Source of the DNA: Henricia sp. BOLD:AAB3569
Lineage: Eukaryota > Echinodermata > Asteroidea > Spinulosida > Echinasteridae
Length of the DNA stretch: 64,000 bases
Reading direction: 5' to 3'
NCBI GenBank assembly: GCA_037783545.1
Contig: JBBELK010000387.1
Coordinates: forward strand, 434,001-498,000
Shown here piece by piece: positions 11,693 through 62,900 of the stretch. Positions within the stretch are counted from its first letter, which is position 1. Each line of letters starts with the position of its first letter. Position numbers and translations under genes: made by a program. The notes under the pieces are model-generated. The model was not told the origin of the DNA. It was given only the letters and a program-made list of their open reading frames with translations, and did not search any database.

Positions 11693-11916
11693 ATGGCGAC
11701 CTCCGCACAACAAGGAAAAGCCACCGTGACCAAGAGCGGCCCAGCTCCTCCCGGAAAGCCGGGCGTCATGGCCCAAACCCCGGCACCGCCTGCCAAGAAA
11801 GGCCCGGTATTACCAGAACTCGATTTATCGCATCTATCGGAAGAAGAAAGACGGCAAATTCAAGCTGTGTTGGAACGCCAAAAACAGGAGGAGGATAAAG
11901 AGGCAAATTTAATAAG
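11693..11916 (+). CDS. RIMS: RIM exon 1 (N-terminus, Rab-binding helix)
   Basis: 224 nt, ends in phase 2 (ATA AG|GTTTGT). The ATG at 11693 has A at -3 and G at +4 (AAAGATGG), and no in-frame ATG precedes it in this open frame. Residues 1-40 are Ala/Pro/Lys-rich and probably disordered. Then come LPELDLSHLSEEERRQI and AVLERQKQEEDKE, matching the vertebrate RIM 'PDLSHLTEEER...MDRQKEEEEKE' helix that leads into the Rab-binding domain. Confidence 0.92.
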
Positions 11917-14900
11917 GTTTGTAAAGTTTTTGTACATTTTTAGGCCATGTGGAATCTTCTCTGATTTCCTCTTTTCGTCTTAGATTTCATCTTTTTCCCT
12001 ATTTCCTTTTTCTGTGCAAAAATATAGGAAGTTTCTTCTTTTCCTCTTAATTTATAAAACAGAATTCTATTCTCAAATTTGTTTTTTGTTATTAATTTTT
12101 TTGAAGCAATAATGTTTATGAACTTAAACATCTCATAAAAATTCACAAATTGCACTTTTTGATTTCTACCTGTTGATGAATTTTCTTAATTGGCAAACCA
12201 AGTAAAGTATCCCATTTTATTAAATTTTATTTTAAAGATTCTATGTTCCGCATTTCTAAAAAAAATTGAGTCGCATCCATTTCCTTTTTGTTTTAAATTT
12301 TATTTATCAAAAATTTAATTAAAAATATATGTTTGAGTATGAAAACGCCCCGTATAAAACGCCCAAAATTATTTTCATTCAAAAAAAAGATAGTCGCAAG
12401 GGTATACTACATGTTATGTTTAAAACGGCCGATGTTCATTTAAAGGTACATTCTGACAGGTTGGGGAATAAAACGTTTAAAAATTACAGGTTTAAAAATT
12501 ACAGAACTTGAGAGAACAATAGAGCCAACGTGGGGAAACGCATACATGGCTCCTAGCAGAAAAACATACAGGCTCTATTGTTCTCTCCCGTTCTGGAAGA
12601 CGAGCAATATAGACTGCCGAAGTGAATACGTCACCTTTTGTTGGTTGCCTAGGCAATTGGCTCTAAACTAAAAATCAGCGAACCGTGTCCCTGTGCTTTT
12701 GCAATGGTACTTTTCCCGACGGCCATGATGTTTAGAGCCAATTGCCACGGCAACACACGTCACACTTCGGCTGTCTATAGTGACCTGTGACCTATTGACC
12801 CACTGTGAAAGTGCCCTATTCAGTAACCAGTTTGCAATTCTTTAAAGTGTCAGCTAACTGGTTAATCATTCGGTTGAGACTAAAGGTTGCCAAAAAAACC
12901 AACATGTCCCACTTTTAATCTTAAATAACTTTGTCATTTTTCAACGGATTTAAACCAAAATTTCACATGTTAATGAGGCCTCACAAATTGTATTGAGTGA
13001 CTTTCATCAGTTTTGTCCAAAAGGTTGAGATTTAAACGCCATACGAAAAAAAAGTCAATTTATTATTTCAGAATTCGCTACTTTCGCCTCCTTCAATGCA
13101 ATGTCGCTGGAGGTGGTAGTGGAATGTGTGTGCTGAGCCGAAAGCTTCTGAGGAAATGCAGAATCACTCCAAATGTTACGCAGACCATCTCGATCATTTC
13201 GCGCAATTCATCAAGAGGTGCAAAGGGACCTCAGACATACGTAGACAATTTCCTTGACAATGGCGGATGCCAAGTCGAAAGTGGCAAAATGTTAAATTTA
13301 GGTTTTTGTTTTCGTATGGCATTTAAATCTCAACATCTTGGACAAAACTGATGAAACTCACTCAAGGAAATTTGTCAGGCCTTGTTTACATGATGTGAAA
13401 TTTTGGCTTATTAATTCCGTTTAAAAATGATAAAGTTATTCAAGATCAAACGTAGGACATGTTTTTTTGACACGTAGTACAAAGTACATGTGTATATTAC
13501 ACCAACCCCAGACTCTAAAAATAATAAATAATTCAAAGTTAATTGAACTTTAAATTGATCATTATTTTACAACAATCCCAAATAATGTTTTGTTTTCTAA
13601 TTTCATAGTTAGGGTTTGTTTTGCCCTTTCCCGACGTAATTATTATCAGTGCTTTCCCAAGATACTATGAAAAAGTTCATAGCGTGCTCGGGTGGGACTC
13701 GAACCCACGACCTCCTGCAAACAAGGCAGACGTCTTAACCAACCGACCACCGAGTTAGTCGGTGTTGAATGGCCAGTTCGATTAATTTAGCAACAGGGAT
13801 CGCAATTAATCAGAAATTGATTCAACTTGCGTCATATAGTGGTTACAATGCATAGTTCCGAGATTGCCCAATTAACCCCGCCCCCCTTGGATATTGTTGC
13901 TACATGTATGCCTCACACGCTATCATCAAAATGGCGACACACTACGCACAAAGCAGTGGGACTTTCAACGGAAAGCACAGATTCATTGGAGAAAACTCAA
14001 ATGTATTCATGTTTCAGGGTCGACAGTTACTGTAGCACGCGCTTCGTAAAACGCCAGTGATACAGAGGTGTCATATATTCATAACAATTTGCTTTCTTAC
14101 CTTTGAACAGCGAATCGCCCGGCCTTGAAACCAAAAATTCACCCGGAACACCGCGTACAACGTATCAGCAGAATGTCGCGTGATGTTGGTTTGTGAGGCA
14201 ATGCACTTTGACCTATGTGGGCGCTGTCTGCTAGCTCTATTGTGATTGGTCGGCGGGTTCGGTTGATTGACAGGTCGGAACTATGGATAGGGGATGTTTC
14301 AAAATAATTTCGCCCAAGTGCCATTTCGTCCCAAACCACTTCGCCCGAGTGCCATTTCGCCCTAGATTACTTCGTCTAAACACTACATCGCCCAAATGCC
14401 ACTTCGCCCCAAAACCACTTTGTGCACAGGCCGTGGTTCAGGGCGAAATGGTTCAGGGCGAAGTGGTTTTGGGGCGAAATGACTGCAAACCCTTTTTTGG
14501 CTGTTTTCTCAAAAGTTAGACGAAGTATGGAGCTGGTTTTTGCTCAGGTTGGTTTTAATCATGTATATCTTCAATCACACAGGGGGATAAAATTATTTGT
14601 AACAGTTACCAATCAATACAATTATCATATAAAATACATCCCAAAAATAATATTCATGACAACAAAACAAAAATACAAAATATTAAGGTGAAAATTTGAG
14701 AGTAAGTTAACGTCTTGATCGTAAGTAGTGATACGAATCGATATCGCGCTGTTTCGCTTCCATAGCAGAATTTGAAATCGACTTACATGACTAAAGTTGG
14801 CTTTTCTGAATATATTTCACAGAATACATACTAGCTGTAGCATAATTTCTACTCACAATGGAACCTCCATGTAAAATATCCATGCACAGAATCAGTATTT

Positions 14901-20900: not shown

Positions 20901-23900
20901 CAGGGCCGTTTTTTCGTCAAAATAATGTAAATGCTTTAAAAATTTGTTCGGAGAAAAAAATTGAGAACCACGGACAATGGTAAATTGAAAATGTGAAGCT
21001 ACTGGTAGGACTACCCCACATGTACATACGGTATGTAGGTCGCATCAACAGAGGTTTCATATGGATACATTTCTTACTAACTGGCCAACTACATGTACAT
21101 GCATACAACATACAGCCTACAGTACATGTGTCTGGTACCAGCGTTTTCAACAATTGGTGTAAAAAGTATTGATTTTTGTCTACGCAAACCGCAAAGATTG
21201 GACACATGTATACACAATATGCATGTACATGTAACAAGGTGAAGGACTACATGTACGTACAGAGATGTACCAGCAAATGACTCCAGCATGCTAATGTGCT
21301 GTTAAATTAGATTGACGTACATGTAGCGGTATACTTTGTCACGTTTTGCATGTGTTGACCGGGTTCGAATCCCGTCTGGGCCAGTATGTAGATTTGGTTT
21401 TCAGTCCCGGGCCCATGTATCGCAGACTGTCTTTTGATATGTCTTGTCTTAAAACATAAATGTGACTAAAAAAATTACATTTTTCAGCTTTTGATTGAAA
21501 TATTGGTCCAAAAGTGCACTAATCTTTTAATAATAATATTTAAGGCATGGAACTTTGTAGTGTAATTTATGGAACTAACATTTTGTTAAAGGAACGTGTT
21601 CAGATTTTTCCAGAAAATGAATTATATTCTAACCATACAATCATATAAAATACCTCCCCAAAATACTATCCATTGGAAGAATACAGGAAATTTGCAGTCT
21701 CCAATTTGGATGTGGAAGCAAAAAGGTTGGTGTAATCACTGCACTGCTTTATGGAACCGGATAAATTAGTTTACAAAACATTTGTGGTTTTTGACGGCAC
21801 AAAATTTCATAATGGTAAGGAGAAAAATATGACAAATGATATGGTATCAGAATCTCGACACCCATGGGAAACGGGAAGTTAAAAATGTGATCTGGTCTAT
21901 GCCTGTGCATTTTCAACTAATTTACTATTCGATTATTCGATATTCAAGATTTTGACAAAAAATTAATTGATTTTGGCACATCCGAACTCACAGCTCACAG
22001 GAATACAGCAGCCTTTTTATTGCCGAATTTTCCACCTCAAAAAATAATCTGTGCTCAAATTATAGACTTCATGTTGTAACTTGCATCTATAGCAGCTATC
22101 TCTTGCCCGAAGAGGCTCTTGCAGAAATTATCGTCGGCCCTCGTACACTAGACTTGTGGTTGGATGCAAATATAACATCAAAGCAGCCGTTTCGGCAAAG
22201 GAAAAATGTTTTTTACTTCTTCTTTGCTGAAAGACATGTTTGGTTTGGAGTGGTAAAAGCACATACAGAATATTCGATTTGGTAAAATGCTATTTGAATA
22301 TTCGATGGCTTACCAAATATTCTAATACCTATAAGGCACAGCCTTAAACTGGTCACACTCATTTAAGTTTCAGAAATAGCAGTGTTGATGGATTTGAAAC
22401 GTACTATATAATTTAGGCACTAATTTTTACGTACTAATTTTTTTTTAAAATCTGGGTATGGTTGTATACTGTACCAATACCTCGCATCTCCAACAGTAGA
22501 TGGCGCTATTCAAACCAAAATTTTAAAACAACTGACCAACTCTACCTCACACCGTGTTTACACTGGCCCCGAGCTCGGGATCAAGATTGGTCCCCTGATA
22601 AGAATGCGTCAGTGTTAACCGCAATGATCCTAAGTGCCGTGTTTACATTCTGTAGTTGATCCCGAGCGCGGTGCCAGAAGTTGCAGTCAAAGGCTCTGTG
22701 TGCGCTTGTTCTCCCAAACAATCGTGGACGTTTTAGGGAGGTCTAACAAAGAGAACAATATCGTCCGCGATTGGCAAGCGAACGTCCGCGATTCGCTCCT
22801 GTACAAAACCAACGAGAGTAAGGAAAAATAGACTATGTCCAAACAAAAGAGGAACAAAGGGACGTCCGTGATTGTATGTGGATTCGCACCTATATGTGCA
22901 TGTACTGATCAATGTGTGCATGGGTTGTGCATGTACAGTGTACAAGGCCACTTGAATTTCGCGGGCTTTTCCCCCGCTACGGCTGTGGAGTGGATGTGGC
23001 AGGTTGCGGTAAAGATTAATTGCTTATCTAACCGCAAACTGATCCCGAGCTCGGGATCGAACCCTCTGCCAACGCGAGACCAAAATCTCGGGGTCTGATC
23101 CGGGGCCAATTTGGTTCCGAGAGCGTTTACACTCAGTTTGTGATCAGGGGCTGATCCCGAGCTCGGTGTTCGACCCCGAGCTCGGGATCAAGTGTAAACA
23201 GGGTGTCGGAAGCATGTCAACAAGATTTGTCTTAGGTAATCTGATAACCTTTGTGTTTTTGTTTACGCAGAGCGTTAAAAGAAGACCTGGACCGCGTTCA
23301 ACAGTCGGCTCAAGTCGTGGCTTCCGAGATCAAAGTCAAGAGCACAACTCCACAGAACGGAGCCGTCTGCCAGATATGCCACAAGACCAAGTTTGCCGAC
23401 GGCGTGGGTCACTCGTGTAGCTACTGTAACCTGAAGTCTTGCGCACGGTGCGGCGGTCGAGTCACGCTAAGATCTAACAAGGTAAGATGAATTTCATTGT
23501 TAATGGATCGAATGAGAGATGACGTTGTAAACAAAACCATGTTGCGCATGTTTTTATGCGATTGTTGGGAGTACTCTAATACAATGGATAGCATATGCTG
23601 TATGGCATTGGTCCGTGAATTCGACGTGGTAGGCACTTCGCTTCTGTAAAAATGTGACCTGCCACTGCATAATGAGGAATGTCCCCCAAATATGATTTTT
23701 GTGGGATTTATACACGAGAAGAAAGACCATTTTCTCAGCTTTCCAATGATACCAAATTTATTTCGGTAACTTACTGCATTTTGGAAATATGACACAACAA
23801 AGATGACTCGGCGTGCTGTCGTTACCAAAAAGAATTTGAGAAAAACGGCTTTGAAAAAAGCTTGTGTTACACAGTCGATGCAGACAAAAATCAGAAAATC

Positions 23901-38900: not shown

Positions 38901-41900
38901 CACCAAAGCTGGACCCCTAATTTATAGAAAGACCCATTTGTTCTTCAAAAGTATTGAACAAAATTAGATAAGTCCAGGAATTTGGTGGGTACGTGGTTAA
39001 AAAAAAATTTCTAATGGTTTCTGTTATTAAATCATGATTGGCTATTTTACTTCAAATTTTGACCCTGCGTTTGACAGATATTTCACGGTAATTTAAATAC
39101 CTCCGTTAGCCTTTTGCGCATTTCCCATGAATAGCCTGTAGTGTACTGACATACTTCATTTCACATGCACACTGAGTATACACTTCACCAGACTAAATTG
39201 TTGTTGCTATGTGGTGCACGCATTAGGTGTGAAGCACATAATCAATACCGTGTTCATCGTAGGAGAGAATGGCATAAAGCAACCATGCTAGGCAATGGCG
39301 TGCACCACGTAGCAACAACAGCATAGTATGTGACTCTAAACTGCACCTCCATTTGAAAGTAAAGAATTCAGGGTGCCAGACATTATGCAAATGGTACACG
39401 CAAAAGGCTATTTGTACGCCACTACCATAGATAAACTCATGTACATGTACAGGCCTAAACATCCACTTCTGTTTACGCAATGAAAGGACCGAACACTTTT
39501 TCTCACAGAACCTATTTGCAATTATTTATGAGCATATGGGCATAGAAAACAAAAGGTCAAAAAAACGAAGGACACTTCTTGCTAATTAAGGCTGTGGTGA
39601 CTTATTAATGCCCAAAGTGTATTCTGTGTATTTTTGGCATTCATATTGTATGCACATATAGCATGACACACACGCCATCAGGGGCAAATGCTTTTAATAG
39701 CTTCAAGAGAAAGATACACGTAGCTAGAAAGGCCATACATTTGCAAATTTAAAATAAAGCATTCAAATATTAAAATAGACGGTGACGCTTTGTCTCGCGT
39801 TGAAGGCCATCTATTGTGCTAAGAGAATTTTAAAAAACGTAAAGGTGCTCGGTTTCATTAACATTCCAAAACAGTAGAGAAAGTAAAATTTAAATTGTTT
39901 CTTGTCCAGAACTTGTCCAGAAATTTACCTTTTTTTCTAAATAGTACCTGGTCACTGTAGACATAAAACGGGTGAATAAATTGGTGCTGTATATTTCAGT
40001 GTATAATAAAATAAAACAATTGGACAATAGTCCAAAAAAAACAACAAATTCACAAATTGAAATATATAGTGAGCTCGTTTAAGTTTTCTTTGGTCAGAAT
40101 TTGTCACTTGAGAATTAGTGGTCGTCCAAAATATTAAGTGAAGCCCTGCCAGTGAAAAGCCCAGCCAGGCCCAGGCCATCAGGCCTGATATCTTGCTACT
40201 GTCTGCCCTAAGGCAAGTTTAAAAGGTCTGGTAAGGCCCTGCCAGTGAAAATCCCAGCCTGGCCCAGGCCCAGGCCATTAGGGCTGATATCTTGCTACTG
40301 TATACCCTAAGGCCAGTTTAAAAGGTCTGGTAAGGCCCTGCCAGTGAAAAGCCCATCCTAGCCCATCAGGCCTGATTTCTCACTGAAGTTTGAACATTTG
40401 AAATTGAAAATCTGTTTTGACATTTTTTTTCCTTCACATTTTTCCTGACAGGTATTATGGGTGTGCAAGTTGTGTCGTAAGAAACAAGAATTCCTAACTA
40501 AAACCGGACAGTGGTACCACGGTCGGCAAGGCAAACCGCAAAGCCTTGACATCGGTGGTGGCGGCCAGCCGAGTGATGGCAGTAGTAGCGGAAGTAAACC
40601 GCAAACACCACAAACGGGGAAAGACGGACTCCTACAACAAACAATAAGGCCCCAAACAGAACAAATTCTTCACAGTGCTAAGCCGAGTAATAACAACAAT
40701 AAGGAGAACTTAGGGGGTCCGCAACCGGCCCGGTCGCGATCGACAACGCCGCACAGTCAGCTCACGCGGCAGATGTCGAAAAATGAAGACGAGTCGTTGC
40801 CTCCGAGTAATTCTAAACCTGTACACCGGACTCACAGTAGCGGAAAACGATCGGGCCACGAAGAGAGGACTCATAGAGATAGAAACGATCCAAATTATGA
40901 TCCTGCGAGTGATGTGCATTTTCAGGAGCGAAGGCGGGAGTCGAGGCGGGATCGCTCGACGAGCAGCGAACGCATGACGATGACGGAGCGTCATGGGCGC
41001 GATCAAGGGAAGTATAGCGGGCGCGAGCACTTCACGGAGCAGGATTCGAGACGCTTTCCAAATCAGGACCACATACGTGATCACGGGAGATATCCTGATC
41101 ATGAACGAGAGCGGGATCGCGAACGGGAACGTTTCACTCACGGATATGAAAGCCCGGATCGGCGAGGTTATCCCGAGGAACGATATTACGCAGGAGATCA
41201 CGAGCGAGATCGCCATTACTCCAAGGAGCCCTTGGTGCGTCAGGTCAGTGGCAGAACTTTAGATCGGCAGCGGCGCATGTACGCAGACGACCCGCCATCT
41301 CCTCTCTATCCCCACGAACGTTATGTCGATCCACCAGGCTCAGACCGCGAAAGAAGAGACATTGATCAAAGGGAAATAGATCGCAGGGAAACGGAACTCC
41401 GCGATTTGGCGGAACGGAGGGACATGGACCGCAGAGACGTGCCTGAACGCAGGGAAGGAGTTGGTGCTCAAATTGAACCCCGGGAGTTTGAACGTCATCC
41501 TAGTGAGCGTCGATTGTCGCGCGCACGACGGGATCGCGACCGCAGCCCCGGCGAGTCCAAACGGACGTCGCCTCGGACTGACGAGCGCTATGCCGAGGAA
41601 TACCGCCGGGGGACGTCGCAATACCCTCAGGAGGGGATTCCCCAAAAACGACCAAGCAGCTCGCCGCGGCATAGCATCACCGTCGAAGACGTGGACGCGC
41701 AACGGGAACGACTTCTTCTCGCGGAATCTTATGGTGCTCCGGGTCACGTTCCCGAACAAGGACAAAAGCAACATTTGGATCCTAGCTCAGCTGCTATGAA
41801 AACAACAAAACAAGATTCCTTAACTAGAAACAGTAAAGCCGCCGATTCCATGATTAGGGCCGATTCGCTCAGCTCGGACCAGAGCGAATGCGTCCGGCCT

Positions 41901-44900
41901 CCGCCACCTAAACCACACAAGACCAAGGGATCACGTAAGAGAAGACAGTTCTCATTGAGTAGCTCGGAGGAGGAAATTCGATCAACTCCGGAATACACCA
42001 GCTGTGAGGAGGGAGAAATCGAAAGTGAAAGTGTCAGCGAAAGAGGTTAGTGATATTTCTTTTCTTTTTCAAATCATTGAAAAAAATTACCGAGCAACAA
42101 AAGAAACACTTTTTTTTCTCCATTTTTTTGATTGAAAAATTCAAAGCAGTCAATCTGGGAGTGGGAATTTTCAGCACACAGAAGCTTAGTGCAGTCGTGC
42201 ATAATGAAGCTGTTATGTGAATATTTCTGTGTAAACTTATTTACAAACGACATTTTCAAATGTTGAAAATGTGCATTTCTCTTGTTGCTCGGTCTACTTT
42301 ACTTAAAGCTTTGAAAAGAAAATATCTTCTTAAATCTGCTTAAATCTGTCACTGGGCTGATGACTTAACCTGACCCACATACTCTGAAACTACAAACACT
42401 TCTTCAAAAAAATCATTTAGTATTTTTTAGCATTTGTTCATATACCAAAAACTCTGTTTGCTATAATAGGGCGACAATTTGTGTGTAAAAAAGCTATATT
42501 AGGCGACAATTTGGTGTCGCCCTAATTTTTTTTTTTAAACCATTTTTTTAGGTCAAAAATCTTTTTTTTAAAATCGAGAACCATTTTTATTAGGACTAGA
42601 ACCAATTCTCTTAGGTCTGGAACCATTTTTGGAAGCTTTGAGTAAAAAAATTAGGTGTCAATTTGAGTGATTCTTGCCAAAATTTCGGTGGTTCCCGGGG
42701 AAAGGCTTCCCGAATTGTCGCCCTATTGCGGCATCCAGAGTTCTTACAATTCCTGTATCAGCACATAACACATAACTTTTTGTTAAGGAATTAATATCAA
42801 AATTGGAACTGAATATTAACCCTGCAACTCTTTCTTTCTCCAAAAAGATTGGCTCTTTTTGTTGGCTCAGTTTTTATTCTCTAAGTCGAAAGTGGCCTGA
42901 AAATGGATCAACTGCTAAAGTGCAGGAGAGAGACGAAAGGAGTAAACAATTGCAACTTTTCTTCGGATGAGAATTAAAATTTGTCCCACTGGAATTTTCC
43001 AGTTTAACACTGGGCACATTTGAAACACAAAAAGGTCCTCTTTTTCAAACATTATACTTGCTTTTAAGATCAAGTTTTTAAGGAAAAAGTTTAAAGGCCC
43101 ATCTACACGATCCAACATTTGTTGGCCAACACGGTTCAACATTTGTCTGACGATGTCGTCCGACCAAAAGTTGGATGGTGTGGACGCCACTCCAGACAAC
43201 GCCCAACATGTTGGAGAATGTTGGAACATGTTTCTATCGCCCGACTTTGTTGGAGCTTGTTGGAGAAACGGGCCAATAGCAGATTAGAATGCCTGTCACG
43301 CTATAGGCAGCAACCAACTGCAGTCGAGATATGTTGGATCATGTTCGTTCACGCGGTCAAGCTCATCCATGTACTGCCCAACAAGTTCCAACTTCATGTT
43401 GGTCCTTGTTGGCCAACAAATGTTGGCTCGTGTAGACGGGCCTTAATGGTCCCATTTTCTGTATGCAAAATCGTAGTCCCCAAAGTACATTTGGCGCACT
43501 GACCCTACCTAATTTTAGGAATTTAAAATATTCAAGTATTGAAATATTTGATCGACAAAGAAATATTCAAATGATAATTTATGAATATTCCCAAGTGCAG
43601 TTAATGAACAAATACAGAGAAAAAAATTAGTCATCTTTGCAACATTCTGTATGTTGCAAATGAACCAAATTCAGCCAAAATAAATGTATGTACCGAAGAA
43701 ATATATATATTTTTTTTGTTGTTGGCTGCATTGCATTTTGTAGTATGATTTTAAACAACAAAAATTGTTACCAAGTCAATCTAAACGAGTATTCGATATT
43801 CGATCAAATATTTGACAGCATTCATATTTGCTGAAATTAACATTTTTTTTTTTAAATTGAGAAATAATCTGTGATATCATTCATGCTTCAAGAGACTGGA
43901 AATAATTTTCCTTTGACTGTTTTTTTACAACATTGACTAAAAATGCCCATCTAATTCCATTTGTAAAAACACTGATGTTAATATGTACTGCCACATTAAA
44001 TGAAAATTGCATAGTCATGCACTTAGCACTAAACGTGCACAATATGCCAATGTGGTTCCCATTCAACAAGATTTGTTACATACAGGAGAGCCGGAGACCT
44101 GGGACGATCGGTGGTCACATGACCAGGATGGACCCTCGCTGACGCTGGTGAGATTTTGTGGCGATGTCGTGATGTCACTAACAACCATCGCCACCTAAAT
44201 GAATTTTTTGTGTCCGTATGATAATCGGGACATCCGTGTGAAAGATTTTTGTTCAGTGTAGTATGTATGAGTGATTTGCATAGCAGAATATTTTTAGCGG
44301 CTGAGAATATTTTTATCAGCAGTTTTGTCCCTTTTTTTAAAATTTTGGATGATTGACCTGTTTTTGCTTTTTTTTAATTTCAAGTTTGTTATCTTGTTGA
44401 AGAAATGTGAATATCATATTTTGACGTTGGTGCCAATTTCATTGAAATGCTTAAAAGTGAATTTACACTAGCTTTTTTTTTGCATAATTGTGACGCGCGT
44501 CGTTTTGACAAAAAGCGATGTGGATTGAATTTGGAGTGAAAATATGCACTAAAACCATAAAATCAACTGAAGCGGACATTTTTTCTGTGATTCCGTAATT
44601 TTTAGGATGTTGTTTCACTTTAAATTCTCTTCACGTCGCTTTTTTCTCAGAGCGACGCACCTCGCATTTATGCGCAAAAAGGCTCATATAACAACTGAAA
44701 TTCAAATAAAATTGGTTTCAAAAATGGAATATTTGGGGAAAACTTGTTCATGCTTTTGTACAGCACAAAACCACAAAGATACTTCACACGATGTCCGATT
44801 ATTCTACTTTCAATGTTCTTCACGCTTTTTATTTCTTCACCTTTGTTTTTAAATTTTTCGTTTATTCCATCTTCCTTACGCTCTTCCAATTACTGCCACC

Positions 44901-47900
44901 GGACTTACGCCCTCAGGTTCGGGTGAACTTGAGACTGGTTCCGGTGGGGGTAACAGCAGCAGGGATAAGAGCATGCATGGCAGCCACGGCGTGGGCCGCG
45001 GCCGCGAAGCCGTCGCGGAACATCACCTCTCCGAGTCTGAACTGGCCGCCATCTCGGCCGCCAAAAAGAAAATTGTCCGGTTCGGCCAGGGGGAGGGTCG
45101 TTCAATGGAAGACGACCCTGATTGGTCAGAGCCGCAGATTAAAGACTCGGGGGTTGATACCGGGAGCAGTACGACTCTAAATGAGGAGCATAATCTAGCT
45201 CCTAAGGTTAGATATTTTTTAAATTGATTTTTTCTTATATTTTCATTTTGGGAAATCGATCGGGTACATATTTTAGTGAACACAGAAAATTTGACTTCAC
45301 TTCGGAATGTGATTTTATTCCAGGTTTTCCTGGAACTTGTGACAAAGACTATTCCGGAAAAATATAATTTAAAAAAAATACATCTCTGTTCACTGGGATT
45401 CGAACCCGAGACTGCTGGATTACCATTCCAGCACTACCAACTTAACTGCTGTACGTACGTGTTGAGTTGAGACTCCAGTGTAGACAAATTTTCTCTGTTC
45501 ATTTCAGATTTAAATAGTAAAATCACATTTACTTAAACATGCTTTATACACAAAATTTAACTCTTCATAACGCTACGTACACACATGTATCCTCCACACT
45601 TTATGTAGATTTTCTTCACACTTAGTATGTGTTTCTCCAACCATGCCCCTTCCCACCAAAATTTCTTTTCCATACTTCCATAAAATTTGAAAATATAGTG
45701 AAATCTTGTTACGTATAATAAGATGCAAATTATATGCAAATTTGATGCAAATTATATGTAAATATGATGCAAATTTGATGCAAATTATATGCAAATAACA
45801 TTTGATGCAAATTTCAAGAAAATAAGATTTCACTGTGTTAAACCGCCATAAACCTCCATGGATCCACAGCGGAATTTGGTGTTGCATTTTTAGTTTATTT
45901 CAAGCATTTCATAGAATGATGGTCACATTGTCATTTCCATTTTTAGCTTGTCTGGCAGTCACCATTTTCCCTTTAGACTGCACTTTTATTTTCCGTTTGC
46001 TTGAAATATCATAATACTTTTTTTTTCGTTCTGAAGTTTGCACCAGAATTCGTTTTACATTTTAATCATCAAAATCACTTTTCCTGCTTGTTTCAAATTA
46101 CTAGAATCTCGCTAAAAGTACAGTGTACGGTATTCATAGCATCGTCGTTGCTCCTAAAACTCTTTTAAAATTGGCTTTCTGATTTCATCTTAAATGTAGT
46201 TGACACACCCAATTTTCTTCAGCACCTAGGTTTTGTTTTTCTTTAATTATTACCATTATTTTATTTGTTTTCATTATTTAAAATGTATACTTGTTTGGTA
46301 ATTACCCTACAACAAAAATTCTAAATTATTATTTTTTAGCTTACTTGTTATCAAGATCATAATAGGAATAATCATCCTGTCAAATTATTTCGTCTGAATT
46401 GCCCCCATTCATGAGAAAAATTACAAATTATTTAAATCTCCAAAGATCCCCTGTAGGCGGTCTTTGGAGCCATTCATTCAAGCACAAAAACCATGCTTGG
46501 ATTTTTCAGGTTTTCTGAAGTATTACTGCATCTAGGTGGCTGACATTTCGACAAGGTAGTTTTCACGACCTATGCTTTCAATTACCAGTGGGAAATCATG
46601 CCGGTTTTAACAGTTTACCAAACAAGTATACTACCTTTAAAAACTAGTCTTTTTATAAATCTGATCACAGACGCATAGCACTCTGCCACTAGCCGACTTA
46701 ACACCACCTCTCCACTGCGCCCTTGCCCTCTTCTTACCAAACGAGCGCTGTTGCAATCCCATCTACTGTTCTTTAATTACATGTAGTGCATTTGAATTTT
46801 GGAAAAACAGTAGAGTGAATTTGAAATGTTTGAGAGTTAAAGATTGAGATTTTTTTTATTATCGAGCAACAAACGAAACGCAAATTTTAAGTTTAATCAG
46901 CATTTGAAAATTTCTTTTGCAATTAAGTTGACATCGGAATATTCACATAACAGGCAATTCCAGACTTTCCGATTTACACTTCAGAGACTTTGAGGGCTTG
47001 TAATGCTTCACGTATTCAAGTTGTTTGATTTTAAACACATGTTCTTCAAGCATCCTTGATGGAAGTGCATGTAATTCCTGAAAAACTGATTGTAATGCCA
47101 TTCTCAGTAAGTGTGTAGGGTCCCCAAAACCATCGGTTTCGGACGTACTCAATGAGTACGTCCGAAATCGAGATATTTTTGGATGTACCACGCTTATTGA
47201 GAATGGCATTACATTCAGTTTTTCAGGAATTACACTTCCATCAAGGATGCCCAAAGAACATGTGTTTAAAATCAAACAACTTAAATGTGAAGCATTACAA
47301 GCCCTCAAAGTCTCTGAAATGTTTGCCCAACAGCTTCATTATGCATGACTGCATAAAGCTTCTGTGTGCTGAAAATTCCCACTCGCAGATTGACGGCTTT
47401 TTTTTTTCAATCAAAAACTGGAGAAAATGTTTGCGTTTTTTTTGTTCCTCGGTATAATTACTAGACATATGGTGTGACGTGTAGTCATGGTAACTGGCTC
47501 CAAATGTCATGGCTGCCAGATAAAGCACCAATGCACTGGTACATGGTTCAGTGATTTTTAGTGTTGAGCCATTGCCAAGGCAACTAACAAAAGGCCATGG
47601 TGACATATTCATTTCGGCAATTTATAATTGCTGGACATTTCATGATTTTTTTTTTAAATTTAAAAAATGGAAAAATTAACAAAACAACAAACAAACCTTT
47701 CATAACCATATCAAAAAGTTATGGGTTCTCTTTCGGGTTTTTATTGTTTTATTGTTTTATTTTTTTCCTCTTATAGTTTTAGAAAAAAATTGAAGATTTT
47801 TTTAACCATGCCATCAATTTACATCTCTCTCTTTCACCTTTAAAAAAATAAATTTTACTTGCACTTTCTTGGTGTGTGCATGTTGTTCATTCCCATTTTA

Positions 47901-50900
47901 TCAGAATTTAATTTCCTCCTATTTTGGAATGCACTTTGCTACTTGAAATTCATTTGCCGATGTGTCTTGGAATGTTTGATAAGCGTGTATGGTCCTCGAA
48001 ATAATTTGCATGCTTCACATTTTTGTATTATCTGAGAACAGCGCAAAATGAAGAAATGGTTTGTTAAAACAGACTTTAAAGATTGCCTCAAAAATTAACT
48101 TCGACCCGTTTTAGATTTTTAAAATAGGCTAAAAAAAAAAAATAAAAAAAAAGAAAAGTAAAAGAAAAACTACATATGGGTCCCACAGTAAAGGGGGCAT
48201 TTTGGCAACACATATTTTCGAAGAAATACCTTTGTCTGGTCTCAAAATAAAAGAAATAAGTTTAAGTTGTTCTGAAGAGATAACTTAGGCCCAAAAAGTG
48301 TTACAAATAGTGTAACAACATGCCTTTCTAAAAACCCTGTTTACAAATTTCCAATATACGCTCGTAACCGGGAGGGACACTTGTGTTACATTTTAGAAAG
48401 GCATGTTGTCACACTATTTGTAACACTTTTTGCGCCTAAGTTATCTCTTCAGAACAACTGAAACTTATTTCTTTTATTTTGAGACCAGGCAAAGGTATTT
48501 CCTTGAAAATATGGTCTGTGTTGCCAAAATGCCCCCTTTACTGTGGAAAGACTCATTTATACATGTATGTATAAATTATAAAATAATCTATGGTTCGTTT
48601 TATGCTCCTAGCTTTTAGTCTTTCTAAATTAAAATTTAAAGATATACAGTCCTTGGTTCTCAGCAAATTTGATTGTTTTTCCCGAACAAATTTTTTAAGC
48701 GTTTACTTTTTTTAACCATAAAACATCAGCAATCCTGTGAAAAACGCAGTTGTTTTTGCGCCTTGCCCATGGTCTGATTTTCCGTGTTTGGTCTGTGGTG
48801 CGGTGCGTGCAGCACGCCCTCTTGACTGGTGGCCTGTCAAATCTCTTTTTTGTGTCGGAAGACTTTCTGAGACGAAGGAAACAGAAAAAAAGAGATTGGA
48901 CAGGCCACCGGTCCGGAGGGCGCACTATGCGGTACACGTTGCAGACCCAGCATGGGACGTCAGACTTGGGCAAGTCTTCGCCTTGAATTACTGACAGTAA
49001 TTGTTCGATAACTAAACGTTGGTCGATTGTTTTTGTTGATGTCTCATTTGAAAGCGAATAACGTTTATGTTTCTAAAAAAATATCAATTAAAAAACCTTT
49101 TTATTTTTCGAGGTGCCACACCCAAAATGCACAGACTGTATATCCTTTAAAAAAGCTTAGTATAATAAATTTAAATGTTATGAAATAAAAAACTAAAAAA
49201 AATGTAAGCTGTCAAGCTGCTTGCCAAAAAAAAGATTTGAAAATATGAATATTCTAGTAGGTACATGCCCACATGCATTAGCTCAGTCTATGAAATGCAC
49301 ATAAAACTCTCTCTCCACTCTCCACCAAGAACAAACATTAACACATTCAGAAAACTAAAATATGCATTTTGTAATTTCTATGAATCAATTGAATTTGAAA
49401 TCAAATTTAGATCCATTTACGCCCCGGCCGCACTCAGGCCATTAATTGCAACAATGCAGGTTCCCTCACAAAAAAAACCTGCGATCTATTTAAATTCTCC
49501 CAACACTTCTGCATCTGGCCGCGTACAAAGAGGCTAGGACCTTTCTAGTGTTTTGTTTGTTTGGAGAATTTAATTGATGGCTTGAATAATTCAAGCCGAC
49601 TTGAATAATGCACGAGGCATGTGAATTTTCTTTCTCTCAATGGTATGCTTCGTGCTTTCACTTAAAAGCAAGCTTTTCACTCCTTTTATTATTTTTTCTG
49701 GCTCTACTTTATAAATGTAAAACTACATTAGTGACACATAAAGGAGATGTTCAAATTTTTCCCCCAGAAAATAGATTTCGTTCCGACCTAACAATCATAT
49801 AAAATACCTCCCCAAAATACTATCCATGGAAAGAAAACAGAAATTTGCAATCTCCAATTTGATGGGGAAGAAAAAAGGGTGGCGTAATCACTGCACTGCT
49901 TTATGGAATGGATAAATTAGTTTACCAAATGAATTAGTTTTTTGACGATATCCTTGGAAATATGCGGGTTGAGAGCGCAAAATTTCAGAATGGTAATGAG
50001 AAAAATATGACAAATGATATGGTATCAAAGTCTAAATGCCCATAGGTAAAAATGAGGGGGAGGGGGGTGGGGGGGGGGGGAGCTAAAAATTTGATTTGAT
50101 CAGATAAATGTGTAAAGATCCAAATTTGTTAATAAGATCAGTCCAAAAATGAGCTACGAATTCGATAATCCCAAGTGATTACTTGCATTATATCAGAACA
50201 CAGTATGACACAAAATTGTTACCTAAACAAATCGTTGCAAAGGTGTACATTTACATGCATATATTGGCATGCACACTTTTAGAGAGACCCATTTGCATAC
50301 GGTTGTAAGGACAGTGCAATATTGCATATTGCAGTGCGTACATTTTCAAGTCGACTGACTTTTAAATTAGAGTTAGGCCGTGAACCAGAGCGTAGAGAAA
50401 CAAAGTGCATTTTCTTCTGTGCTATAAAACAGTTTGGCTAAGGGTTAAAGGCTATGTACGTATCATTTACAGATAATGTTTCTTGATCAATTCCTGGAGA
50501 GACTGTCTTATGTATGTAAAGAGGGGTCACAGTAAACTACATGTACTCCCAAGAAATTTCTGCTCCATAAATGCAGCAGTCAAACTTGGGATGAGAGGAA
50601 AATTGTAAGGGCCTTATTGGGATTCAAACTCGAGACCTCTGACTAACCGGGCATATGCTTTACCAGCTGAGCTATAAGGCACAGTGTGGTATACTCCCTC
50701 AGGTTTTCCCCCAAGACCTTTGACACACCGGGCAGATGCTCTACCAGCAGGGCTTTGAGGCACAGTGGTAGATGCCCTCCGGTTTCCTCCAAGATCTCTG
50801 ACACATCAGGCAGATGCTCTACCAGCTGAGCTATAAGGCACAGTGGTATACTCCCTCAGGTTGTCCCCAAGACCTCTGACACACCAGACAGATGCTCTAC

Positions 50901-53900
50901 CAGCTGAGCTATAAGGCACAGTGGTATACTCCCTCAGGTTTCCCCCAAGACCTCTGACACACCAGGCAGATACTCTACCAGCTGAGCTATAAGACACAGT
51001 GGTATACTCCCTCAGGTTGTCCCCCAAGACCTCTGACACACCAGGCAGATGCTCTACCAGCTGAGCTATAAGGCACAGTGGTATACTTCCTCAGGTCGTC
51101 CCCAAGACCTCTGACACACCAGGCAGATGCTTTACCAGCTGAGCTATAAGGCACAGTGGTATACTTCCTCAGGTTGTCCCCAAGACCTCTGACGCACCAG
51201 ACAGATACTCTACCAGCTGAGCTATAAGACACAGTGGTATACTCCCTCAGGTTGTCCCCAAGACCTCTGACACACCAGGCAGATGCTCTACCAGCTGAGC
51301 TATAAGGCACAGTGGTATACTTCCTCAGGTTGTCCCCAAGACCTCTGACACACCAGGCAGATGCTCTACCAGCTGAGCTATAAGGCACAGTGGTATACTC
51401 CCTCAGGTTGTCCCCAAGACCTCTGACACACCGGACATATGCTCTACCAGCTCCCTATGAACCCATTGCATGGGAGCGCAACTGGGTGAAGTAATGAACA
51501 AAAATAAAGAACTTTACAAAAAAATGAGTGCACTCATTTTAAATCTTCCGAATTACTTTTCTTAAAAAGATAACACTGGTGGAAACACCTCAAAGGGTAG
51601 CAAATCCCCCACCCCCAATTTTTTTTTTTAAATACATGTACATGTAAAATTTGGGTCATTGCAAATGATACAGTGGACCTGTTAAACCTACAGAATAAAA
51701 TATGCATGTACATGTACCAAGCTAAACAAGTACAGATATATAGATAAATTTACCTTGTATATGAGATCACGACAATTATGAGTATATACCAGCATAATTT
51801 CAGAATGTTTAATTATCAGGTTATCCAATCAGGTTATCGGTGCCCAAATTTACTGTTATCTGCTTTCCCTATCATTCAAATGAAAACTACTCAAAATCGC
51901 AATTTTGCGTGAGAGAGGGCGACAGACATTAAATCGTAAGCGCAAAAATTCCACAAACCAGAGATCATAGTCATACCTAAATTGTACATGGATCTAAACT
52001 TTTTAAATGCAATAGTTCCTATGGCAGTATCGGTACATAGAAATGCCGTACGCAAAAATGTCATTCTTTGCCCAGATTTTGGACAAAATGGCAGCGTCCA
52101 TACAACAAGGTGTAGGCCTAGTTACAATTGCCATTCTTTGTGAACTTCGTGTCTGCTTTTCAAGGGGTCATATTTCTTATTATTATAAATATATAAAGTG
52201 AAGCTTTTGCGAATACCGTGCATTTCTGATACTGTGCAGCACAGAGCCCCAATCTGATGTGGCTATTTCCATAAAAACAGGAGCCAAAATGTGACATTTT
52301 GATGATTTGTAAAAATGGCCTTTTCAAGTTAACAAAACTGTTTAAAGAAATTTCTGTGCAATTTCTAAATAATATAGAATATTTAAAATAATTTACAAAC
52401 GGTTACAAACATGTCTTGGTATCATAGTCTTAAAAATATTCCAGAAAATTGTTTCACCTTGTAAGGGGCGTTATTCAACTCTTGCGATTACATTTGAAGT
52501 CTTTTTGACCAGTTTTGTTCTAGAAAAGGTAGTTGCTGATTTTACCCAGCTGTAGAACCTGGACTTTATAGATTCAAATTACATTATGAGCAAAATTTGT
52601 TACATTTTGAGCGAACGTTTCAAAATGTCACACTTGCATTTACATGTACAAGATCACACTAGTTTATTGAATCGTTCTCGTTATGTTTTGGGTAGTATCA
52701 ACAGATAAAGGTGGTGTTCGATTCATGAGGTCATATATTCTTTATATGCCGAGGGTAATCGTTGTCTGGAGTCTGGTGATTATAAAAAAATCAACCCCAG
52801 AAGTGTCACGACGTAAGGGGGACACTGTGTCCTGTTTTTGTGGAATTACCCATGTGCATACCGGTACACGCTGGGTGCACAAAGCACACGCGTACGCGCG
52901 CATCATGCATCGAGTGAATGGATTGCGTGAGTACAGTAAAAAAAAAAATACTGTACAACAGTAACAAAAGCTCATGCAGTTGCAAACGTTGCAAATGAAC
53001 TGAAGTTTTCAACACCAAACAGACAAAAATCTTGCGGAAATCTTACAAAACAAAGAAGGTATAAGCTTCATTTTATATAACTAATAATATTGGATGTCTT
53101 TTCGGGTGATATGAGAATATACTGCTATCGTCATGACTCGTACAGTATATTCTCATATCACCCTCAAAGCCTTTCAATATTATATAATTCTTCGTCTAAA
53201 GTCGTGTCCGCATTGGACATGTTTTTGGGGAGGTTTTACCGAGACGATGGTAAAATGAAAAATGGCTAAATTTTACTGCTGTCCGCATTTGGATTTTCGG
53301 ACACAATAAAATTTTACAGAGACCGTGGGAGAGCATGCGCAGTGTCCCTTCGCAGTTTGACCTTCACGGCCCAGGCGTATGCTTCCCGAGCGCTTTTACC
53401 GACTTGCCGTGTCCGCATTGGACTTTTCGTCTCGGGAAAAGTTCCCTGCTTAATTTTCCTGGGCAGAAGTTGACCAGGAAAAGTAACTGCTGGACTCAGG
53501 AAAAGTTACTGAGAGGAAAACGTCCTAGGCTGTCCGCATTGGACTTAAAATGGGAAAAGTACCCAATAAAAGTCCAATGCAGACAAGCCTTAAATTATAA
53601 TGTACGGGTTGTACTTGTTCAATATACGCCTTTTTTCTTGGGTATAATTCTCCTTTAAATGCAATTAAAATTCCAACACTATCAGGCCATATTCTCAAAG
53701 ACCATTAAAGTTAAAGGTACACAATCTAGAGTACATGATTGGTAAACTATTACAAAGTGTGTTATTTCCACTCTTGATTAGAAGCCCATGTTGATAAAAC
53801 TGCCGTGTAGAAATTTCAGCCACATAGAGGCAGTTATACTTCAGAAAACTTGAAAAATCCATTCATGGCTTTTGTGTTGAGTTGAATAATAAAAAAGTCT

Positions 53901-56900: not shown

Positions 56901-59900
56901 CCATATCTGTAATATAATGTGAATATAGCTGAAACTAAATGTCATGAATTTACAAAGGGTGTGTTTTCTGTGATAAATATTTGATTTCGAAAAGATGCAC
57001 ACCCTATTTGCAGAATGGACGAGGCTATTAGCCTGCACCATGGCCCTACACCCTCTGGGACCGTAAGAGTGGCTGCCAGGGCAAGGTATGGAGCGCAGTG
57101 AAATTCGTGGCACCAATTTGTCTGTCGCGCATTGACGAGCCTCCGTCTTTAATTACAAAAGAGATTTTCAAATTTTGATGAAACTGAAAATTTGCGTTTC
57201 TTTTGTTGCTTGGTACAGATGGTGAAGTTTAATGCAGAATTCACAATAAAGCCTTTTCATGCGTTAACACGCTTACATTTTACGCGCATTAATTTTTACG
57301 TGCGTTGTTTTGAGACAAATTGGCGTGGGGGGAATTTAAAGTGAAACGTCGCACTGAAAACGTTTTGTGATTCTGTGATATTCTGTGCGTCGGTTCACGC
57401 CAAATTCTCGCCACAAAGCAACACACGTCAGATTTTGAAGCATTAACGCATGAAAAAGCCCGTTGTGAATCCACCCTAAGGCTGAAATGCAATGACTTGT
57501 GTACAAGAAACATTCTGACGAAAAATACAATTTTTCATAAATACAATAAATAAGGGAATAAAACCAGTTCTTAGGGGCCGTCCAAAGTTGTCAACATTTT
57601 CACGGTTCTACAAAGCATTGGAAGGGGGCGGGGACGTCGAGGGCCACGTAGAACTTTACATGCACTGTAAAATGTTGACATTTCACGGTAGTGACAAACA
57701 AATGTTGATAAGTAGTATTTCGGAGGGAAGGAGGGGGTCTTGAAAAATACTACGTTCTGTAGAACTGTGAAAATGTTGACAACTTTTGACGACCCTAATA
57801 AAAATAATGGAATAAAACTAGGTCAATGCACCACGTGATCATACTTGTAGACTGGTTCCCGTCCACATATTCCACACAGGAGAATATAAGGACAGGTAAA
57901 GGGCGCTTCAACTTGATCTGTAATTGGTCGTCTTTGTGCGTGCGCATTGTGTTTTTTATATTTAAAAATTGGCCAAGCCCTTTGCTTTAGGCAATGTACT
58001 TTATTTACATAATTGGATATGTTCGACATGCACAGCCAAGTTACAAATGTCAATGCAAAATCTGCGCACTTACTTAAAAATAAAAAATAATAATAACCAC
58101 GTGACGGGCAGAATTCTGCCCGTCATGGCTGCCCTTTACCGATCCCTATATTTTCGCAATAAGCGAACCAATCTATCATACTTGGGGCTGTTTTTATTTT
58201 CCTTGCCAATAGCTGAAAGTGTTTTGAAAATTTTACATAATTTTTATTTCTGCCCACCACAAAGAATCCAACTAAAGTGTTAGTAATCCTTTTCCTCATA
58301 AATATTCAGCACCCGGTCACATGGACCCCAGATTTAGACAACAACCGACTGATTGGTCACATGATCCTGAAGAAGAGCCAATTAGGAGACAACACCGTGC
58401 CGCAAGATTCCAGCGCCATCTTGGGGTTAAAGGTCAAAGGCGGAAAGGTCAAGGAAGCGGGGAAACTGGGAGCGTTCATTTCTCGCGTCAAGCAGGGCAG
58501 TATTGCGGACACTGTCGGACATCTTAGGGCAGGTATGTACTGTATTCGCTACTTGCACGGAACCGTTGTATTGGCAAAACAGCGAGGCTTTCCTTGCTTG
58601 AACAGTTACTCCCTCGCATCGTTACCGTGTAGGCTGCTGTGACGTTGACTTTTGTCCATTGTAAAATATCTCACGAGAGAAATCGCTTCGTTCGACGAAG
58701 ATTAGTTAATTTTTTTTAGTTAATGAAGCGTGCATTCACATCTCACTGAACGAAGAGCGGTATACCGTTCACATTAGACAACCGCTAACGAAGATAGAAT
58801 GAAGCTGTGCTACGCCCCCATCTAGTTACACATGTCAAATCACTTCGTCAAACGAAGGGAGCGTTCACATTTCAAATCTCTTCGTCGAATGAAGCGATCT
58901 CTTCTTCGAATGAAGCGATCTCTTCATCGAATGAAGCGATTCTAATCTTCGTCGAATAAAGAGGCGTGCATTCACATCAGGAAATCTCATCGTTGAATCA
59001 TCGTCGAACAAAATGATTTTTGTAGTGAGAACGAGGTTTTTGATTTATGCCCGGATAGCCTCGTTTTTAATGTGACCGTGCAAGTGGTGAATTTTGTGGT
59101 AGGAGGCGGGGCTTGTAGGAAGCGGTGCTTGTAGGTTGGACTTAAGCGGGCCTCCCACTGCGCGATTTTTACCCCGAATTTCCAACGATTAGGTACGACT
59201 TGGTGAGATTACCAGAGACTGTCTATAGACTCTATACACAATCATACACAATCGTACACAATCGTACACAATCGTACACAATCGTACACAATCGTTTGAA
59301 ATTCGTGGCAAATATCGCACAGTGAGAAGAAGTAAAAGCAAAAGCTAACACAAACATGAATTTGACATCACAGTGATGTTTTTGCGCCGGAAATTCAAAG
59401 AAAGTTGGCTTAGTTTCAACTTGCACAAACATTTACGGCAAAATGTGTCAGATTTACGTCAGAATCGCATTTGTGTTCATGCTTATTTTGCACACAGCAG
59501 GCCCTGGGTGTTTGGGGGTTCATTCTTGGGGTGGTTCGAATCCCCCATCTGGAGCCCAAGGTTCACTCATCAGTGTTTTCGGGTGTACTTCATGACGTCA
59601 TTGCTTCTCTCCATGACATCCTAGCTTCTTGTCATGACGTCATTGCATCTTTGAAAAGGGAAAATTTGTCCACCCTTTTGGCAAAAGAACCCACATGAGA
59701 CAACCAGCCTATGGCCCTTCCCACAATTTGATGCGACAGCAATTTCATGACGTAATTTTAGAGCATGTGATTGGCTATAAGAACTGGATGCGCCCTCGAC
59801 ATGCAACTTCAAACAGGTTGACTACAATCGATTCCTGTTTGTCAGGGAGTGTTGTGGTGTTACTGTGCAGTGTCAGACTTAACAGCTTTGGCCCCGTGAT

Positions 59901-62900
59901 AAGTAAGACTGTCTAGAGAATTTGAGTTAAAAATTTACTGTTGTCCACTAAGAAAAAAAAGGTACATGTATTACATGTACTATAGATTAGGTTTTCTCGC
60001 TCGAATTCAACAGAAATGCATTCTATTTCGTTTAGTGGAAGTACGTATTCAAGTGATTTTGATCAGGACGCAATTTCTCTGGTTCTTATTTATTTGCATG
60101 TTTTTCAATTTCGTTTAAAGACATTCACATTTGTTCGCTAAGACATCCAGATTAGAATTTGCGTTATTGAATCTTCATTCAATTTAGCACAAGCTCGAGG
60201 TTTGGGCGAATTTGAATGATTTTTCGTTGGTATTTTAAATTTGAGTGCGGAATTTTCCCGATTGCGTGCTCGAAAAACCAAATTGAATGCTCTCTTTAAA
60301 TATTTGAAGGATGATCCCAAACTGCATTCAAATTTGCGCTAAAACGAATGCATCTGAAACAGAGGTACTTTGTTAAAACTGAACGAGAAAATCTAAAGTA
60401 CTATGCCTGCATTCCAAGACTCTTAGACAATCCATTGTTGATAATAATTGTCTCCCTATGGTTAATAAAAACCTACTAATTAATTGGACAAGAGAATTAC
60501 ATACGAGCAGTTTCGTACGTGAACTTGCATCCAAGTACATAAATGTCGACTTGTAAATTTTTTCTCCGCCGAGATCTCTGTCAGTATGTGCTAAACTTGA
60601 CAGCGTCATAATGAATTTCTTCATTAAAATGTGTGGGCCATACAGTACATCAACGGTTTGCGCTTGCTTGTAAATGTCAGAACCGATTTACAGGAACGGT
60701 GTTCCGGCTCGCACTCGCGGTTCACTGCCGACAGATGTAATAAAATTGGTGTGCTGGGAGATTGGGTACATTAATGTCACGGATGACAGGGGGAGGGGAG
60801 GGGAGGAGAGGGGGCTGGGCAAGGGGTGGGAGGGGCAAGGGGTAGGTGGAGCAAGGGGTAGGTGGATGATGGTGTATTTAAAGGAGTGTGACCAGATCAC
60901 AGTTTTGATATCTCCCATTTTTCCCATGGGTGTTGAGATTTTGATACCATATCATTTGTCATATTTTTCTCGTTACCATTCTGAAATTTCATGCTCTTTA
61001 ATCCGTATATTTTCAAGGGTATTTTTTAAAAAAACACCGATGTTTTGTAAACTAATTTATCTGGTTCCATAAAGCAGTGCAGTGATTAAACCAACCTTTT
61101 TGCTTCCACATCCAAATAGGAGATTGCAAATTTCATGTTTTCTTTCCATGGATAGTATTTCAGGGAGGCATATTTTTATATAATTCTTAGGTTAAAACTA
61201 GACATTTTCTGGATAAATCTGAACATGCTCCTTTAAAGGAGCTCGTCAAGATTTTCCTAAAAAAAATTGACTTCGTTCATAACAATCATATAAAATACTT
61301 CCCCAAAATACTATCCATGGGAATAAAACAGGAAATTTGCAATCTCCAATTTGGATGTGAAGCAAAAAGGTTGGTGTGATCACTGCACTGCTTTATGGAA
61401 CCGGATAAATTAGTTTACAAAACATCGGTGTTTTTTGACGATAACCTTGAATATATACAGATTGAGAGCACAAAAAATGCTCGAAAAAAAAAAAAAAAAT
61501 GTTTTATTTTTTTAACCCAGGTGATGAAGTTTTATCATGGAACGGTCACAACTTACAAGGCAAAGACGTTAACGAGGTCTACACCGTCATCTTTGACTCC
61601 AAGAGCGAACCACAAGTGGAGCTATATGTAGCGCGGCCAATTGGGTAAGAGCATTTAAAAAAGTGCACAAACATTGATGATGTCATCATTTACAGTACCG
61701 GCCAAAAGTTTAAGTACACTTGTTGAAAACTATGTATAAAAAATTAATAAATTCGTCTGTAAGATTGACCCTCATTTCGTAGAGTAATCACAGCTTGCTC
61801 TTTTCTTTACTCAACTGGGGTCCTTTTGCCATTGTACAACAGTTGTGTATGCAAGAAAGGCAAATATAGACTAGATAGCTATCTGATAGTGGTCAAGAAC
61901 TGACTGGTGCTAATACTGTGCATTCAGCTAGTACAAAGTGATTTTGGACACGCTCCAGGGACCTCAGAAAATCAGAGAACAGTCAGAACACATGCAAAAG
62001 AACCTATTACACATAATCTGTTACATAATACAATATTGTATTCATTGTATACTTATTAAAACTTGTGTGACCTTCAGGGGCTACTTTTTTTTATAAACTT
62101 CTCAAAAAAAGGTTCGTCAGGTTTGACTGACGATTTCTCTCTTGGTACTAAATCATTTCCCTTGAATTTGGTATCATTGGAAAGCCCTGTTATTCCTCTT
62201 TACGACGATGTGTCATTTGTTATGATTAAGCAATTGGGGGATGTGCAGCACAGCTGAATACGGGGGCGGGTGTAAAGTGAAATGTCACAAAATGCATTGC
62301 TATTGTCAAAAAGTGCATTGACACATTCCCATCCTCCAAGCAAAAGGGGAATGCACTGCATGACAATAGCAATGAATTGTGTGACATTTCACTTTCCAAC
62401 CACCCCTGTATTCCACTATACTGCACATCTCCCAATTGATTAATCATAACAAATGACACATCACTGTAAAGAGGAATAACGGGGCTTTCCAATGATACCA
62501 AATTCAAGGGAAATGATTTAGTAACAAGAGAGAAATCGTCAGTCAAACTTGACTTTCCGAATTATTTTTGAGGAGTTTATAAATACATGTACATTATTGA
62601 TATGTGCACTACCGGTATTTATACATTCGTTGCATTCATTGAGCACTGTCTATCAGCACATGTGTGTGCTTACAAACCGGGGAGTGCACGCTTACGAAAT
62701 GGGGCGTGGACGCTTAGAAATCAGATTGGCTTGAATTAATACATATTCAACCCAATGCACACAATCTGTCGTATGATATTAAGCATTTTGCTACCCGAAC
62801 GGTAGCAGAACAAGCTGGCAAGGGTGTCGCAGCTGCACTGCTCCCTCCTCTCAAACAGGCACGCAATGCTTGAGATACCTGCTCCTAGGACACCTTGAAC

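Follow-up and report, generated by a model that had tools for sequence, protein, structure and literature searches.

RIM is a scaffold protein of nerve terminals, and internal promoters generate the isoform classes of vertebrate RIM. The window analyzed here, a stretch of 64,000 nucleotides (nt) from Henricia sp. BOLD:AAB3569 (contig JBBELK010000387.1 of assembly GCA_037783545.1, positions 434,001-498,000), contains a RIM gene on its + strand, and two neighbouring exons of this gene, exon 4 and exon 5, located between the linker and the PDZ domain, are the subject of this report. The closest described system is that of mouse RIM2, where a 21-residue insert, MEYSWLEQASWHSSEASPMSL, termed "splice site #2", adjoins the PDZ domain N-terminally and is present in both RIM2-alpha and RIM2-beta (excerpts of PMC7136232, citing Wang, Sugita and Sudhof 2000).

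The alternative exons of rat RIM1 (N83-W105, H1084-R1169 and A1207-T1378) exclude the pre-PDZ site, as far as the excerpted text of PMC10634917 goes. Splicing of Rims2 is mentioned in a study of an Srrm4 mutant (PMC3464207) and in PMC7397853, and Rims2 exons of the first intron (PMC6473190) and exons 20-22 (PMC10078954) have also been treated; the pre-PDZ site is unnamed in the excerpts of these four papers. Among the papers listed by a search of open-licence literature (15 of 4,012 matches), none dealt with RIM splicing outside vertebrates, which is no proof of absence. Mammalian RIM2 is taken by us to have a long pre-PDZ insert at the same position as exon 5, ending WSEPQIKDSGVDTCSSTTLNEEHSHSDK, and RIM1 (RIMS1) is presumed to have a short pre-PDZ segment of the exon 4 type.

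Exons 4 and 5 of the window are both intact. Either one alone restores the reading frame between exon 3 and exon 6, and inclusion of none or of both, by the main splice sites, breaks it. The best reading of these sequences is that the pair is ancient and not new, probably mutually exclusive, and homologous to splice site 2 of RIM2. That the two exons are the counterpart of this vertebrate site, i.e. neighbouring exons used singly, has good probability.

Reading frame at exons 3 to 6

Coordinates and phases of the exons are listed in Table 1. Scripted joining of the exons bears out the phase relations given in the preliminary description, with exon 3 leaving in phase 1, exon 6 entering in phase 0, and exons 4 and 5 each bridging the two. 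The joins 3-4-6-7 and 3-5-6-7 are free of stop codons, as had been stated for 3-4-6 and 3-5-6. The two joins that had been called out of frame are so: 3-6 has a TAG stop at 58525-58527, and 3-4-5 has a TAA stop precisely at the position given for it, 45178-45180. As these stops precede further junctions, nonsense-mediated decay (NMD) would be expected for both products.

By arithmetic alone, the chance that both exon lengths are 2 modulo 3 is about 1 in 9. The pattern is placed above chance by the open frames, the consensus-like donors (7/9 for each of exons 3, 4 and 5, and 8/9 for exon 6), the homology of exon 5, and the lack of any change in exon 5 between two copies of the region (0/290, described below).

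This arrangement resembles the class of frame-enforced mutually exclusive exons: products with one exon are alone in frame through the main sites, and double or zero inclusion leads to an early stop. Unlike the duplicate-type pairs, exons 4 and 5 display no sign of a common copy origin. An origin of the two as duplicates of each other found no support, 1144 of 2000 shuffles scoring as well as the actual comparison.

When the main sites are used, single inclusion alone leaves the frame open; one route around this exists. An AG at 44932-44933, within exon 5, is in frame, and exon 4 can be joined through it to the remainder of exon 5 with an open 3-4-5'-6-7 product; this acceptor had been pointed out in the preliminary description. 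It raises an alternative in which the two cassette exons can also be joined, by this inner acceptor or by a microexon of length 1 modulo 3, resulting in three productive states (4, 5 and 4+5'). Such an arrangement appears unlikely, however. The run-up to the inner site is poor and purine-rich (11/20 pyrimidines, with the main AG inside it), and the site is 17 nt past a better AG that has a 136-nt AG-free tract. As to a microexon, the middle of intron 4 (44226-44778) diverges as a whole at an intron-like rate between the two copies, with 31/543 substitutions, though no scan aimed at microexons was made.

Relation to vertebrate RIM2

The PDZ domain encoded by exons 6 and 7 has as its top match in the PDB the human RIM2 chain 1wfg (E = 5.6e-43); the RIM1 PDZ chains 1zub and 2css also match. 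Identity is 71/112 (63%) to human RIM2 and 67/109 to rat RIM1, while human RIM2 and rat RIM1 are identical at 88/109 positions. The PDZ sequence is less like either vertebrate protein than these two are like each other, which places the gene outside the RIM1/RIM2 pair.

Exon 5 encodes 97 amino acids, with the split Gly counted in. In the protein sequence, a basic stretch precedes a conserved tail that is acidic and rich in Ser/Thr. This tail, WSEPQIKDSGVDTGSSTTLNEEHNLAPK, is followed by HPVTW and is identical to the presumed WSEPQIKDSGVDTCSSTTLNEEHSHSDK at 23 of 28 positions, and at 22 of the first 23. An alignment of the whole of exon 5 with the presumed RIM2 insert gives a score of 149, which none of 2000 shuffles reached (best shuffle, 56). 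In the human RIM2 chain 1wfg, HSHSDK is found directly before HPVTW, in agreement with the last six residues of the presumed insert; the RIM1 chain 1zub has S at this place. The exon 5 variant is related in sequence to the RIM2 long insert, though the comparison is with a presumed sequence.

The RIM2 long insert is like exon 5 in its near-identical end, WSEPQIKDSGVDT.SSTTLNEEH (presumed, with the end confirmed by 1wfg). The two differ in the Gly/Ser-rich head, which is longer in exon 5, and in that KKKIVRFG of exon 5 stands against KKRMYYGG of the presumed RIM2 sequence. Exon 5 alone yielded no hit among the 177635 distinct PDB sequences up to E = 10, and no named domain in Pfam, where there was a single chance-level match (E = 0.26). 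The preliminary description had treated the exon 5 module as one not known from vertebrates. Since exon 5 appears to be the longer of the two variants at an already described splice site, that view is wrong on present evidence.

Exon 4 had been described as matching the vertebrate segment in position and Trp content. It is directly N-terminal to the PDZ domain, as is the alternative segment in the excerpts on mouse RIM2, and it shares with the short variant of splice site #2 its length of 21 residues and two Trp residues. In amino acid sequence the likeness is weak, exon 4 having diverged from the mouse 21-mer: 1329 of 2000 shuffles give as good a local score with MEYSWLEQASWHSSEASPMSL, and the global score is reached by 103 of 5000. 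The string WHSSEASPMS, presumed for the short RIM2 variant, turned up in one paper (PMC7136232, in excerpt).

Conservation and splice signals

The genome was searched at the DNA level (2104 contigs, 740.7 Mb; 40 of 946 candidates scored). Among the scored candidates, and leaving aside a repeat in intron 4, the region was matched on the present contig (C387) and on contig C205 alone. The second copy displays 94% identity and is colinear over ~30 kb; most simply, it is probably the other haplotype.

The splice sites of exons 3-6 are preserved in both copies. Exon 3 shows 23/1594 substitutions without gaps, 17 of them synonymous and 6 nonsynonymous; exon 4 shows one (1/62) and exon 6 one (1/223), both synonymous. 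Exon 5 shows none (0/290), including at ~66 synonymous sites. Intron 4 shows 34/759 substitutions, and intron 5, over its initial portion, 36/685. At the intron 4 rate, the probability of 0/290 in exon 5 is ~1.7e-6, and that of one or fewer in 62 is 0.23, so exon 4 is unproven by substitution count alone.

These data bear on a second alternative, in which one exon is the normal one and the other is rarely used, the site serving chiefly to lower the level of RIM through unproductive splicing. Double and zero inclusion do both stop early, so that missplicing would cut RIM output. Both exons, however, are open throughout with no amino acid change between the copies, and exon 5 strongly resembles a presumed mammalian coding segment, which makes such a role quite improbable. 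It is hardly credible that the two exons, instead of forming one splicing choice, are each tied to a promoter or isoform class of their own, one alpha-like and one beta-like: RIM alpha, beta and gamma isoforms exist in vertebrates (PMC10169678, in excerpt), but the acceptors of both exons fit the phase of the exon 3 donor, and the mouse 21-mer occurs in RIM2-alpha and RIM2-beta alike (PMC7136232, in excerpt).

Several points weigh against homology to RIM2 splice site 2 and single use of the exons. The letters of the RIM2 long insert are presumed ones, set down after the window had been read, and outside checks were sought for this reason. Outside confirmation is limited to the last six residues (1wfg), and ten strings from the presumed insert were not found in the papers searched. 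That vertebrate RIM2 uses its two pre-PDZ segments one at a time is likewise an assumption here. The sequence likeness of exon 4 to the vertebrate 21-mer is weak, and the inner acceptor in exon 5 leaves an open product with both exons. The C205 copy could be a recent duplicate instead of an allele, and the absence of synonymous change in exon 5 could stem in part from the two copies sharing a recent ancestor at this locus.

The 3' splice site of exon 4 is weak, with 10/20 pyrimidines and an AG-free distance of 13 nt upstream. Exon 5 is preceded by the long pyrimidine-rich AG-free zone shown in Table 1. AG-bounded runs of at least 134 nt are rare, 2 of 3261 on the + strand of the window. The tract is likewise 136 nt long in the second copy, with 2/138 substitutions in 44779-44916. 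Long AG-free tracts accompany distant branch points and regulated exons; by this token, the 3' splice site of exon 5 is a candidate for regulation, and its branch point may be distant.

A hairpin near the exon 4 donor is a second candidate element. The 76-nt stretch that includes it (44140-44215) has a folding energy of -21.1 kcal/mol, which 8 of 200 shuffles equalled or bettered (z = -2.03), and the hairpin itself is without substitutions between the copies (0/40). Intron 4, the 769 nt between exons 4 and 5, also contains a palindromic repeat resembling a miniature inverted-repeat transposable element (MITE), which is outside the switch. Its inverted arms are at 44510-44554 and 44600-44644, it shows 17/230 substitutions between the copies, and of the 62 DNA matches among the scored candidates, 60 are elsewhere in the genome and fall on it, in both orientations. 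Inverted pairs in 43400-46400 number 25, many of them A/T-rich or within repeats, and none was singled out for competing RNA pairing or compared with chance. Steric exclusion by a short intron is unlikely, given the length of intron 4.

Table 1. Location of RIM exons and of intron elements in the window.
Feature	Position	Strand	Remarks
First coding exon of RIM (PELDLSHLSEEERRQIQAVLERQKQEEDKEAN)	within open stretch 11561-11980, approximate ends	+	open frame
RIM zinc finger exon	within open stretch 23248-23487, approximate ends	+	open frame, Pfam, PDB
Exon 3, linker, 1594 nt	40452-42045	+	phase 0 in, phase 1 out; end ...SESVSER-G
Exon 4, alternative, 62 nt	44086-44147	+	(G)EPETWDDRWSHDQDGPSLTL; phase 1 to 0
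Hairpin, perfect 9-bp stem (GTGGCGATG / CATCGCCAC)	44157-44196	+	~10 nt past exon 4 donor; candidate element
Palindromic MITE-like repeat, intron 4	44457-44686, approximate ends	+	outside the switch
AG-free zone, 136 nt, pyrimidine-rich, before exon 5	44779-44914	+	AG-run scan
Exon 5, alternative, 290 nt	44917-45206	+	phase 1 to 0; end ...DWSEPQIKDSGVDTGSSTTLNEEHNLAPK
Exon 6, PDZ domain part 1 (HPVTWTPDLDNNRLIGH...)	58310-58532	+	phase 0 start
Exon 7, PDZ domain part 2 (GDEVLSWNGHNLQG...)	61521-61644	+	exon joins; PDB match

The gene displays the domains of an alpha-type RIM in order, i.e. zinc finger, PDZ, C2A and a C2B-like piece, with the joins traced up to exon 7. The sequence PELDLSHLSEEERRQIQAVLERQKQEEDKEAN in the first coding exon is taken by us to be the Rab-binding helix. 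When exons 1, 2 and 3 are joined approximately, residues 9-128 of the product match FYVE_2 (Pfam). The zinc finger matches Pfam RIM2a_ZnF (E = 2.8e-27), and its sole match among solved structures is 2a20, from RIM2 (E = 3.4e-25). Pieces of C2A are found downstream on the same contig (E = 1.9e-16 to 5e-4), and one further downstream piece (E = 1.9e-4) is read as C2B-like.

Other elements were seen in the introns. A tRNA-Thr (tgt) was called by ARAGORN on the - strand at 13684-13756, between the first coding exon and the zinc finger exon, and a 99-bp tandem unit in 2.3 copies (40143-40365) is directly upstream of exon 3. In intron 5, a 78-bp unit is repeated in tandem ~10.5 times (50633-51452); the unit contains CTCTACCAGCTGAGCTAT, which by eye resembles a tRNA-derived piece on the - strand. 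Also in intron 5, the segment 45390-45480 is tRNA-like by eye on the - strand (GGGATTCGAACCCGAG...). It was not called by ARAGORN, and is possibly a tRNA-derived short interspersed element (SINE).

Proposed use of the two exons and its meaning

In the proposed scheme, transcripts would carry either exon 4 (21 residues, with Trp and acidic amino acids) or exon 5 (97 residues) ahead of one and the same PDZ domain. The choice is probably set at the 3' splice sites, by the weak site of exon 4 and the long AG-free tract of exon 5. As steric exclusion could hardly act across an intron of 769 nt, wrong exon combinations would be cleared by premature stops and NMD. The preliminary description had proposed a switch between 21 and 97 residues at this place; frame, conservation and homology make this the best-supported reading, although overall it is supported in part. 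The switch is likely to be real and to be conserved with vertebrate RIM2.

The pocket of the vertebrate RIM PDZ domain binds CaV2 and ELKS (PMC10634917, in excerpt). Exchange of the exons would most likely alter the partners, kinases or phosphatases beside the PDZ domain, and not the PDZ fold.

A tentative and rather doubtful extension is that the pair predates the split of RIM1 and RIM2 and was later divided, with RIM1 presumably retaining the short exon and RIM2 both, and that the long exon of the present gene is a phospho-regulation cassette. Two motifs in exon 5 suggest the latter. KIVRF, basic before and acidic after, is taken to be like a docking motif for protein phosphatase 1 (PP1), and DSGVDT, of the form DSGxxT, is taken to be like a beta-TrCP degron. 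DSGVDT is kept in the presumed RIM2 sequence, and KIVRF is replaced there (KKRMYYGG). The motifs were picked after the fact, and motifs of the KIVRF and DSGVDT types occur in 2.8% and 2.1% of exon 5 shuffles, respectively; for these two reasons they are a lead only. If this cassette is real, splicing would set phosphatase recruitment to, or turnover marking of, an active-zone scaffold.

The segment WSEPQIKDSGVDT.SSTTLNEEH is better kept (22/23 against the presumed letters) than the adjoining PDZ domain (71/112). If transcripts confirm the single use of exons 4 and 5, this segment would be a constrained motif flanking the PDZ domain in a core scaffold of the active zone, and the splice choice of mammalian RIM2 would be older than the split of the vertebrate RIM genes.

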